Of a stretch of DNA of 64,000 nt, positions 17,446 through 20,845 are shown one piece after another. Origin of the DNA: Bacillota bacterium. Lineage in GTDB: Bacteria > Bacillota > Clostridia > Ch29. The stretch is from assembly GCA_013540605.1 (NCBI GenBank), contig JABVCK010000001.1:124001-188000 (forward strand), read 5' to 3'. Made by a program: the position numbers and the translations under genes. The notes beneath the pieces were generated by a model. The model ran no database searches. It was not told the DNA's origin and was given only the letters and a program-made list of their open reading frames with translations. Position 1 is the first letter of the stretch. The number at the start of each line of letters is the position of its first letter.

Positions 17446-17790
17446 TTATTTTCCTAAAGAGCCGATTGTGTCTACCGGGCTGTAACGTGCGCGCTTTTTC
17501 TTGAGGTCCGGTTGGAAAAGGCGAGCATAATTTTTGACCATTTCCACACTTGAATGGCCAAGCATCTCCTGTAGGGAGAGGATGTCCCTTTCCGCCATAA
17601 TCCACATTTTGGCAAAGGTATGGCGGAAGGTGTGAGGGCTGACACGTACGTTCTCAATGCCTGCCGTATGGCCGTAATTTTTAATCCGGTCCTGAATGTT
17701 GCGTTTTTTCAATCTTCCGCAATCCACGTTGGGGAAGAGATGTGGAAGGATATGCGCGGCGGCGGTTTTAATATTTGCGAAATTATGAAA
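17446..17790 (-). pseudogene. Tyrosine recombinase (phage-type integrase) C-terminal remnant
   Basis: The minus strand encodes the catalytic C-terminal part of a tyrosine recombinase. The H-x2-R block reads SPHTFRHTFAK, then LQEMLGHSS, then the probable nucleophile tyrosine in MVKNYARLF, and a tail ending SPVD. The N-terminal DNA-binding half and the first catalytic arginine are missing. The frame runs out at about 17814, inside the 3' end of the next minus-strand gene. It is therefore a decayed fragment. It marks past insertion of a mobile element at the edge of the accessory patch; no tRNA or attachment repeat was found beside it. Confidence 0.8.
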
Positions 17791-18718
17791 AATCGCGTTT
17801 TTCCATACGTCCATATGCGTCCAGCTTTCTCAGTATGTTTAAGGTCAGGACTCCCTTCCATTCGTTATAGGCCGGTTTCAGGCTTCCAAGGTAATAGCCT
17901 TCGCCCCAGGGTGGATTTACTACTCCATTATTCTCAACCAGCTCTACATAGAAATCGAGGTTTTCTTCAATTTTGGACTCCCCAACCCCAAATCTGCATT
18001 TATCGGGACCCGGAACAAAATCTAACGGCATTGGCACATACCCGGTCCATTTTTCCCTGTCATATTCAATGACCTGGGATATGCCGACAGCGATTCTTTT
18101 CATTAATCTCTTTTTCAGTTCATCGGGTAATACCTCGAATAATTTTATGTAGCAGAACAGCTCATTTTCGGATTCAAACCTTTCTTTAGCCTCAATATAT
18201 TTCAAAGCGTATTCCACCAGATAGTCAATATCTAATTTGCTTACATACTCCTTATATTTATATAAATGCGACAGTATTTCAGCGGAGGGGTTTCCCCAGT
18301 TTCTGTCTATTATAGTCATACCGTTTTCTTCATCATAATGCCACCAGGGTGCGTGGGGATAATCATTCACATCTTTCGTTACGGCAAACCACCCGTTCCG
18401 GGTTTCATTAAATGCCGATTCATAATAACCTATAGCTGATTTTATCATCTCTTCCGCGTCTTTATTACCATCTATTTGCGACAAGAGCCTGACACCGATA
18501 GAGGTAGCCATAGGTGACGAAAACGGCTGCCGGAAATCCGACTCCAGGCCGTTTCCGAAACCACCGTCATTATTCTGGTATTTTTTTAATGCTTCTATTA
18601 TCTTTGCGCCGTTTCCTCCCTGAAAATAGTATTCGAATAAGTACTTCTCAAGATCCCTCGCCTGGTCTTTGAAAAACTGATTAATCGAGCTAAAGGGTTT
18701 ACCGGTTAGCTTTAACAC
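17783..18718 (-). CDS. Hypothetical protein with prenyltransferase/squalene-cyclase-like repeats
   Basis: A 311-residue soluble protein with no signal peptide. The pattern QNNDGGFGNGLE and later PPWGEGYYLGS resemble the repeats of the alpha/alpha-toroid fold found in prenyltransferase and squalene-cyclase relatives. The catalytic DxDD or zinc residues of those enzymes are not evident, so it may only share the fold. GGAGTGAGGATG sits before the ATG at 18718 on the minus strand. The last few residues overlap the integrase remnant, so the original C terminus may have been altered. No function is assigned. Confidence 0.6.
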   Translation of the reverse strand: MLKLTGKPFSSINQFFKDQARDLEKYLFEYYFQGGNGAKIIEALKKYQNNDGGFGNGLESDFRQPFSSPMATSIGVRLLSQIDGNKDAEEMIKSAIGYYESAFNETRNGWFAVTKDVNDYPHAPWWHYDEENGMTIIDRNWGNPSAEILSHLYKYKEYVSKLDIDYLVEYALKYIEAKERFESENELFCYIKLFEVLPDELKKRLMKRIAVGISQVIEYDREKWTGYVPMPLDFVPGPDKCRFGVGESKIEENLDFYVELVENNGVVNPPWGEGYYLGSLKPAYNEWKGVLTLNILRKLDAYGRMEKRDFS

Positions 18719-19136
18719 ATCCTCACTCCTTTGATTTGGGTTAGCAGTTGGTTAACATCCCAGAAACCAAATATTTGATATGCAAATAGTCTCTAATAAC
18801 CCGGCATGAAAATTATACCAAAGTTGGTCATAAGGCGTAAAGGTATTATGTAATATTACGGGAAGAAAGAGCTAAAAGAGACAAATATGTCGAGGAATCG
18901 CAGAATATGTTGGTCAGTTCAGATATAAATCTGGTTCAACCTCAAACTTTGTGCTAAGTGATAATGTTCCAGTGTCAACTGGTAAATCCAAGAAATAAGA
19001 TCATCGATTTTACCAGCGACTTGGAAACTTGCAAATGTAAAACTGACTATATTTTATATAGTTTGGGTTAGGGAAACTCAATACGATAATTTTTCCAATA
19101 CAACTGGTTACACCTACCCTATATACCTTGAAAAAC
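18719..19136. other. Gene-free stretch left of the insertion sequence
   Basis: This 418-base AT-rich stretch holds the upstream region of the minus-strand toroid-like gene and unassigned sequence up to the left end of the insertion sequence. A 38-codon open stretch at about 18841-18957 (plus strand) looks charged and helical (REERAKRDKY) and could be a decayed coding remnant, but I cannot name it. No RNA gene or clear terminator was seen. Confidence 0.4.
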
Positions 19137-19160
19137 GCACCTTGAAAACCTATAGAAAGA

Positions 19161-20363
19161 CTATGCACATTCAAGCTTAACCCGGATTTCGAAGTTTTTG
19201 TCATTTCGATATCCATAGGCCCTGCGCTTTATATTCTTAATCTTGTGATTAAACCCTTCTGTGGGTCCGTTGCTGATTTTGCAATCATAATAATTAAGAA
19301 TGTATTCCCGCCAGTGGTCAAGGGTTCGATTGAAGGCCTGAAGTTCAGGTATCTGGCTTTCCTCAACAAGTTCCTTGAAGTAGTCAATAAAGGCTGCGGC
19401 ATTTTCCTTGGTATTAATCTTGAAGAACTTGCGGAATTCTTCCTTTAAGGCAAAACATTCACCAAGCTTTGGGTATTCATCACATACTTTAAAAAGCCGG
19501 TTCATATCATCCGCCTCAAGGTCTTCGAAGTTTTTAAGCAATGCCCAACGAATGCCGAATACTTTTTGTTTATCGTCTTCTTCCTTCCTGACTTTATTTT
19601 GAATGTGCTTTCGTGCATCATCTACCTGGTCATGAAGCGACTGTGATAGATGAAACCTGTCGATAACCGGTTTAGCATTGGGAAGAGTTTCAAGAACCCC
19701 GTTACAATAGCCCCTGCTCATATCCATGGCAACAGCTTCGATATTATTCCTGAACTCTTCGCTCAGGGATTGGAAAAAGGTTATCACATCTTCCTTGGTT
19801 CTTCCCCTGAACATGGCTATTACCGAATGGGTTTCCAGGTCATATACCGTGGTGTTATAATTGTGACCCTTCCGCCTTGCCAGATCGTCTATGCCTATGA
19901 ACCTTACTTTTTTAGATGGCCTTGAATTAATTTCTTCCTGGGCATAGTAGTTGAAAATCCTTTGGCATTTGCCATGACTGATACCTTCAAGCAGACATAC
20001 ATTTTCTATCGTGTTTTGTTTGCAAAGGTTATAAATGTATATTTCATAAGGTATCGTCTGGCGCTGGTATTCCCTTATAAAGTTGTATCTTAAATCAAAT
20101 GGATGGTCAGGGTCGCATTTACATTCCAATCGGAATATCGGCAACACCAAGACGGTTTTTGTGCCCCATATTGGTAGATGCATATAGTCCTGAACCCTTA
20201 CATCATGTACTGTTTCCGTTGTGCTGCCACATTTCGGGCAAATCCCTGAAATGGTCGATGGTATAGCGCAAACAGTAAATATGCCATTATTTACATAGGT
20301 ATGAATAACCTTTAAGCCTTGAACTCCAAGCATTTGTGCTGTAAAATCAATTACGTTATTCAT
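19161..20363 (-). CDS. ISL3-family transposase
   Basis: A 400-residue DDE transposase. An N-terminal zinc-ribbon contains CPKCG and a C-x-C pair. The catalytic core shows IGIDDLARRKGHNY, AVAMDMSRGY, PVIDRFHLSQ and, near the end, GPTEGFNHKIKNIKRRAYGYRN. These are hallmarks of the ISL3 family. The frame is intact and full length, so it may be active. The ribosome site AAGGGGG lies within a long hairpin just upstream of the ATG at 20363 (see the hairpin entry), a likely brake on translation from read-through messages. Confidence 0.9.
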   Translation of the reverse strand: MNNVIDFTAQMLGVQGLKVIHTYVNNGIFTVCAIPSTISGICPKCGSTTETVHDVRVQDYMHLPIWGTKTVLVLPIFRLECKCDPDHPFDLRYNFIREYQRQTIPYEIYIYNLCKQNTIENVCLLEGISHGKCQRIFNYYAQEEINSRPSKKVRFIGIDDLARRKGHNYNTTVYDLETHSVIAMFRGRTKEDVITFFQSLSEEFRNNIEAVAMDMSRGYCNGVLETLPNAKPVIDRFHLSQSLHDQVDDARKHIQNKVRKEEDDKQKVFGIRWALLKNFEDLEADDMNRLFKVCDEYPKLGECFALKEEFRKFFKINTKENAAAFIDYFKELVEESQIPELQAFNRTLDHWREYILNYYDCKISNGPTEGFNHKIKNIKRRAYGYRNDKNFEIRVKLECA

Positions 20364-20428
20364 ATCCGATACACCCCCTTTTTAGTTTTTGTTGGCGTAA
20401 AAATTGTAAGGGGGTTATCGGATTTTTT
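20364..20428. promoter_or_regulatory. Fold-back hairpin over the transposase ribosome-binding site; plus-strand terminator
   Basis: Bases 20364-20380 and 20408-20423 form a stem of about 16 pairs with one bulge and a 27-base loop. On the minus (transposase) strand the stem buries the AAGGGGG ribosome site just before the ATG at 20363. On the plus strand the stem is followed by TTTTTT and would act as an intrinsic terminator. The structure is seen in the sequence; the regulatory roles are inferred. Confidence 0.7.
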
Positions 20429-20552
20429 CTACCTTTTTTCCAGCACTTTGCCAAGGTACTTTATGGAATTTTCAAGGTGCCACAAAATTTATTGTTGAAC
20501 CATAAATCTTGACTTAAAAATAGATATTGGAATATAATACCAAAGTTTGCTT

Positions 20553-20845
20553 TTATGTATAATTGTCATAAGCTCCATCCCAACTATCGGCTATTTTCAA
20601 GAAATCGGCATAGCCATTAGCTCTAACATATTCAATAGCTTGCCTATACTTTTTATATTTATAGCCATTCTTGCCGTGAAATTCATTTATCAACATGCAT
20701 GTAGAAAGGTCCGGACATTCTGAACAGGAATTGTAGTTTCTTTTTATACAGCATACTTTCATTTTACACTTGGCCTTGTCTATGTCTCTTTGACCATCTA
20801 GATAGCCCAATTTAAAACCTTAACAAATGCTTGGCATGTTCCGCA
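20553..20845 (-). pseudogene. DUF3795 protein, frameshifted and 5'-truncated
   Basis: The minus strand holds the cysteine-rich DUF3795 pattern in two frames. The beginning, YCGTCQAFVK (about 20815-20845), is in one frame and reaches a stop. The rest, with KVCC..CSECPDLSTC and a conserved aromatic C-terminal stretch, continues in another frame from about 20810 for 85 residues from a TTG. Upstream of YCGTC the sequence runs into a repeat at 20858-20880, so the native start is lost. It is a broken gene next to the insertion sequence. The 85-residue piece could still be translated but lacks a convincing ribosome site. Confidence 0.55.

Follow-up and report, generated by a model that had tools for sequence, protein, structure and literature searches.

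A hairpin hiding the transposase ribosome-binding site of an ISL3-family insertion sequence, and its possible role in an IS10-like control

An insertion sequence of the ISL3 family lies in a 64,000-nt stretch of DNA from a Bacillota bacterium (the window hereafter), and immediately before its transposase gene stands a hairpin in which the ribosome-binding site (RBS) of the transposase is paired. The pairing is kept in other copies through sequence change, and strong stems occupy the same place in distant members of the family. We think it rather probable that this is an IS10-like control, in which one inverted repeat has three uses and guards the element against neighbouring promoters and probably against its own extra copies. 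In IS10/Tn10 an inverted repeat lies at the transposase start; the read-through RNA hides the RBS, and the native RNA starts between the arms. For the present element, an RNA reading through from outside has both arms, and its fold would hide the transposase RBS; here pairing and conservation are observed, and silencing is what they suggest. Transcription of the element's own mRNA would be driven by a -10-like box and begin within the loop, near 20396; this mRNA would have no 5' arm and a free RBS, as conservation and fold energies indicate. On the opposite strand, a promoter in the first codons may give an antisense RNA of about 75 nt that contains the complementary hairpin and ends at a run of six T. 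Its loop, UUGGCG, could base-pair with the GCCAAC... at the 5' end of the element's own mRNA and would then block the RBS. Both promoters, the antisense RNA and all effects on translation are thus predictions made from sequence.

ISL3 insertion sequences are defined by terminal inverted repeats and an 8-bp target duplication. The window element has both, with inverted-repeat arms of 22 nt that are 82% complementary. Its transposase matches PF01610, PF14690, PF13542 and NF033550, all above the cut-offs, and shows the domains of an ISL3 transposase, namely the ISL3 DDE domain (DDE_Tnp_ISL3), a zinc ribbon and an HTH. Its Pfam matches are the three ISL3 models only, and no IS4-type transposase was found. 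With an ISL3 and not an IS4/IS10 transposase, the element is no relative of IS10, although its control would work like that of IS10. There is one full-length copy of it in its own genome, and two decayed relatives are found on other contigs. The features are the following, in positions of the window.

18925-18932, no strand: left copy of the target-site duplication ATAAATCT, an exact 8-bp match with the right copy
18933-20501, minus: complete ISL3-family insertion sequence, 1569 bp, by its terminal inverted repeats and exact 8-bp target duplication
18933-18953, plus: terminal inverted repeat on the transposase 3' side (inverted-repeat search)
18967-19026, minus: second hairpin, in the segment that separates the transposase stop from the other inverted repeat (z -3.2)
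19161-20363, minus: ISL3 transposase, 400 aa (PF01610 at 1.7e-72, PF14690, PF13542; NF033550 at 319 bits)
20319-20347, plus: promoter-like TTGAAC-17-TAAAAT within transposase codons, candidate antisense promoter (promoter scan; codon-shuffle p 0.025)
20354-20430, plus: candidate antisense RNA of about 75 nt, comprising the complement of start codon and RBS, the hairpin and a U6 end (predicted)
20364-20380, minus: hairpin 3' arm, which holds the ribosome-binding site (folds)
20374-20380, minus: Shine-Dalgarno (SD) sequence AAGGGGG, paired inside the hairpin (opening cost by fold energies)
20381-20407, minus: hairpin loop, with a small inner stem UUUUU/AAAAA presenting ACGCCAAC (folds)
20392-20397, minus: loop motif CGCCAA at the predicted transcription start, about 20396 (conserved in distant loops)
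20403-20408, minus: -10-like box TACAAT in the loop, candidate native promoter (conserved position in leaders)
20408-20423, minus: hairpin 5' arm (folds; covarying in relatives)
20423-20428, plus: T6 directly adjoining the base of the plus-strand stem (sequence)
20458-20485, minus: TTGTGG-16-TAAAGT, a box upstream of the hairpin that could serve as a rival sense promoter (spacing conservation)
20481-20501, minus: terminal inverted repeat on the transposase 5' side (inverted-repeat search)
20502-20509, no strand: right copy of the target-site duplication ATAAATCT, an exact 8-bp match with the left copy

The minus-strand stem is formed by A20423-T20408 and A20380-T20364, with 16 bp, one bulged G and a 27-nt loop, and ten bases lie between AAGGGGG (20380-20374) and the ATG at 20363. 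The initial annotation had described a stem of about 16 pairs that buries AAGGGGG before this ATG and placed it correctly. For the 65 nt of 20364-20428 the predicted fold energy is -23.3 kcal/mol, compared with a mean of -9.4 after shuffling (z -5.6), and none of 200 shuffles was as good; in 111 nt of context the hairpin has -27 kcal/mol and z -3.6, again with 0/200 shuffles as good. How strongly is the SD sequence hidden? Opening it would cost 16.5 kcal/mol in read-through RNA, while the cost would be 2.5 kcal/mol if the RNA starts in the loop. By computation, the read-through RNA thus pairs its RBS with an upstream arm, as in fold-back of the IS10 type. The shut-off of translation on outside messages that the initial annotation proposed is supported in this form, as a predicted RBS-hiding hairpin. 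No Rfam family reached the gathering score over the hairpin; matches to mir-7385 and SNORD12 were rejected, their weak scores being far under the cut-offs. The T6 that the annotation had pointed out directly follows the stem on the plus strand, but a loop of 27 nt is more than intrinsic terminators usually have. A scan for intrinsic terminators in 18900-20560 reported none, either at the hairpin or on the sense strand; at the hairpin it is silent because it allows loops of 3-8 nt only.

Is the pairing kept in other copies? Within the class, 14 of 391 genomes contain the leader DNA. Sixteen leaders were used to build a covariance model, which was searched against four orders, where it hit 3/7, 2/3, 4/13 and 6/58 genomes (already known carriers included), and then against the phylum with stricter filters, where it hit 3/398 genomes, one of them (L131) an unrelated terminator. 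An ISL3 transposase match follows the leader in 20 of the 30 hits examined, and the other ten are contig ends, decayed copies, hits with no match at E 1e-3, or L131. This last, a terminator of the ordinary kind among unrelated genes, was left out of the pair counts. The stems keep their pairing while the sequence changes, for example CCGATTCACC with GGTGAATCGG and CCGATATATCTCC with GGAGAGATATCGG; in close relatives the outer ATCCGAT/ATCGGAT hardly varies. In a MAFFT alignment 87.9% of cells are paired and five pairs are changed on both sides, with two of five covariation measures not above shuffles; the covariation is modest there because one-base bulges shift the register. A register-free comparison of each leader's own arms with swapped arms, which left out the decayed or truncated copies L100, L003, L147, L148 and L149, gave -20.7 vs -17.7 kcal/mol for 15 representatives (0/20000 permutations). 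Smaller sets gave 2/20000 for 11 representatives and 37/20000 for six very different ones. The swap removes relatedness only in part, and since related rows are not independent, these counts overstate the significance. The pairing is nevertheless kept in other copies, where a lack of complementarity would have spoken against the initial annotation. One of the leaders, L141 (G780:C49:850-926), is followed by a few codons and then by another terminal-repeat copy, as in a short non-autonomous derivative, which it resembles.

The next question is where the element's own message begins. The loop holds two regularities. One is the motif: CGCCAA or CGACCAA is found in 23 of 43 loops of distant or named ISL3 elements (shuffles mean 0.8, at most 4), and in the window copy CGCCAA sits in an 8-nt apical loop. 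The other is a -10-like box, TANNNT. Of the 27 distant loops that carry CGCCAA/CGACCAA or the variants CGAGCAA and CGAACAA, 18 have it 11-14 nt ahead of this motif (mean of 1.9 and maximum of 7 in shuffles), and 27/27 close leaders have it in the equivalent position. Counting 12 nt on from the first T of TANNNT leads to the motif, which would put the start of the native mRNA of the window copy at about 20396, with GCCAACAAAAAC as its first bases. As the box is inside the loop, this mRNA would lack the 5' arm and have an open RBS. A native start in the loop at about 20396 is thus likely. The IS10-type analogy drawn by the initial annotation gains from this, the conserved box being what fold-back needs, but no -35 consensus for it was found in the leaders examined. 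Three sense promoter candidates were weighed in all. Another, better spaced, is the box TTGTGR-16-TAAANT upstream of the whole hairpin, with 16-nt spacing in 21 of 25 leaders, whose transcript would carry both arms. The third, TTGGCA-17-TAGAAA, was put last because its -10 is without the final T and the L130/L140 group does not keep its spacing.

The plus-strand hairpin was taken by the initial annotation as a terminator for incoming messages. The stem and the T6 are indeed there, but they are better read as the putative body and end of an antisense RNA started in the first transposase codons than as a barrier to incoming messages alone. The candidate RNA (20354-20430) folds at -28.8 kcal/mol with z -6.1, no shuffle out of 200 being as good, and its loop carries UUGGCG. 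A run of at least five A stands at the T6 place on the transposase strand in 29/29 leaders listed. When 21 close relatives are scored for promoter-like sites on the antisense strand, the top site falls on the same codons in 20; among 27 distant elements with strong stems it begins at codon nt 3-16 in 24. This placement follows in part from the protein sequence. Under synonymous codon shuffles the median p is 0.11 in the close relatives, with 2/21 below 0.05, and 0.12 in the distant elements, with 7/27 below 0.05. In the distant elements, A-richness outside the 5' arm is 0.44 vs 0.19.

We then ask how far the layout reaches beyond the close relatives. The distant set comprises 47 non-redundant ISL3 elements from Proteobacteria, Planctomycetota, Lentisphaerota, Desulfobacterota-type bacteria and Clostridia, with transposases mostly 25-35% identical, and was scanned for folds in sliding windows with no start codon chosen. 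At the projected gene start the mean z is -3.58 and 29 of 46 elements are below -3; inside the gene only 0-3 of 47 are, and 120 and 90 nt upstream 8/43 and 9/43. IS256 was meant as a negative control and came out positive: its loci (L173-L193) have a strong RBS-hiding start hairpin with z below -3 in 14 of 16, so the hairpin design is not specific to ISL3. Ordinary window genes (mean z -0.04, 1/44 below -3 at starts) and IS110 (3/19) were used instead. Of 60 distant and named elements, 43 have a long stem with a 3' arm ending at the start (-2 to +17), and 27 of those 43 stems were better than all 10 shuffles. The RBS is in the 3' stem arm in IS1251 and in the copies of Enterococcus faecium, Parageobacillus, Neochlamydia and Pseudodesulfovibrio. 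Such a hairpin is absent at the annotated start of ISPpu12, ISEc53, ISKpn25 and the Gloeothece and Streptomyces copies; the annotated start of the Planococcus copy looks misplaced. The distant stems share a place but not a sequence. The genome of the window element itself has a further intact ISL3 element (L152, contig C33) with a transposase 26% identical and the same layout as the window copy, that is, a long stem, the RBS in the 3' arm and an A-run outside the stem. The layout thus appears to be spread through much of the ISL3 family.

Other explanations for the same hairpin should be weighed. It might be a constant brake on translation: the native mRNA would come from TTGTGG-16-TAAAGT (20485-20458), always carry the hairpin and give a trickle of transposase, and outside and native messages would be treated alike. 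The spacing of 16 nt in 21 of 25 leaders, those of the shorter-leader clade included, speaks for such a promoter, and opening the SD in its RNA would cost the same 16.5 kcal/mol as in read-through RNA, just as a brake of this kind would have it. However, each hexamer of the box matches the consensus at only 4 of 6 positions, and the box may belong to transposase-binding DNA; a constant brake also leaves unexplained why a -10-like box and a motif are conserved in the loop and why a promoter-like site stands on the other strand. We regard it as rather unlikely.

Selection might instead act mainly on the plus-strand hairpin, as an antisense-RNA gene or a terminator, with the hiding of the sense SD a by-product of overlap. 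The antisense fold is in fact as strong or stronger by z (-6.1 vs -5.6), the mean arm duplex is -20.1 on the antisense and -21.0 on the sense strand, and the U-tract side is kept in all 29 leaders. Yet in ISL3 elements that use SD initiation (IS1251 and the E. faecium, Parageobacillus and Neochlamydia copies) it is the SD itself that lies in the 3' arm, and the sense strand has more G-U pairs than the antisense strand (27 vs 13), a difference that partly reflects the fixed G's of the SD and gave no clear answer as to which strand is selected. This makes the explanation improbable in our view. If the repeat were a palindromic DNA site for the transposase or a host protein, with the RNA fold incidental, this would account for the nearly fixed outer ATCCGAT/ATCGGAT of the close relatives. 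But the inner stem sequences co-vary and bulges restore the pairing, while the distant stems are alike in place and not in sequence, their placement being tied to the start codon; we therefore consider a DNA site very improbable.

The preferred reading, an IS10-like control, can be set beside known systems. With IS10/Tn10 (fold-back, RNA-IN/RNA-OUT) the window element shares one inverted repeat and an RBS hidden in read-through RNA, and here a native start between the arms and an antisense RNA would complete the likeness; it differs in its ISL3 transposase and its 27-nt loop with CGCCAA. The antisense RNA of IS10 (RNA-OUT) covers the RBS (PMC7968456). In IS200 a leader stem-loop occludes the transposase RBS (PMC3196728), as the window hairpin does by prediction. 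In IS200 the termination of sense transcripts from outside is the task of another stem-loop, placed first, whereas the window element has one stem and no U-tract on the sense strand; neither a sense-strand terminator within 18900-20560 nor a Y1 transposase was found, so that the leader is not of the IS200 type. ISPpu9, of the IS110 family, likewise combines a 5'UTR structure hiding the RBS with an overlapping antisense RNA, Asr9 (PMC8450116), for which the window element offers a candidate counterpart. Asr9 is reported to raise translation, however, while a blocking role is expected in the window element, and the sampled IS110 starts show no general hairpin (3/19). Antisense control is also in print for IS256, where an antisense RNA over the start sites is reported in E. 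faecalis (PMC10266640). The start hairpin (14/16 loci) and the antisense RNA, a candidate in the window element, are shared with IS256, but the transposase family is unrelated, and the number of IS256 loops with a -10 does not exceed chance (9/16 vs 5.9 expected).

The initial annotation was not aware of a description of fold-back in ISL3 elements. In an open-access collection that covers few subscription journals, ISL3 leader structure or antisense RNA appears in two partial precedents only, and a full description was not found. One of them describes predicted 5' terminators ('mobile attenuators') upstream of Firmicutes ISL3 transposases, read as a guard against outside transcription (PMC2965389). 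The window element also has a 5' hairpin upstream of an ISL3 transposase, but those are sense-strand terminators, while its sense strand is without a U-tract and the RBS is hidden instead. The other precedent reports antisense sRNAs over the 5' ends of transposases of the 'IL3 or IL30 family' in Streptococcus pneumoniae (PMC12323649), a likeness by description. PMC3890552, PMC4046766, PMC3141674 and PMC11092175 hold nothing bearing on ISL3 leaders.

A wider claim may be put forward tentatively, with a little less than even confidence: much of the ISL3 family (in Firmicutes, Proteobacteria, Planctomycetota and Lentisphaerota) would carry one conserved RNA control unit, made up of a hairpin that shuts read-through messages, a native start on the CGCCAA loop and an antisense RNA of about 70-90 nt whose UUGGCG loop meets that 5' end, with copy number limiting transposition in trans. 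The same layout has perhaps arisen separately in IS10, ISL3 and IS256. ISL3 is a large and widespread family of insertion sequences. If the claim is true, it explains why ISL3 elements stay quiet after landing in transcribed genes, it gives a uniform antisense-RNA prediction for them, and it points to convergence of unrelated transposons on one compact RNA switch.

Some further observations concern the surroundings of these elements. By eye, the right ends of relatives have repeats resembling the second hairpin (18967-19026) with the sequence changed. A near-consensus promoter, TTGACT-18-TATAAT (11/12), at 20509-20538 on the plus strand begins at the target duplication and is directed away from the element. 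On the minus strand at 17446-17814, a 122-aa open frame matches XerC/XerD-type recombinases in their C-terminal part only, so it is probably a recombinase remnant. Just past the ISAeme19 transposase on an Aeromonas caviae plasmid (L171, 1779-1847) there is a match to a type II hammerhead ribozyme, at 65.9 bits.
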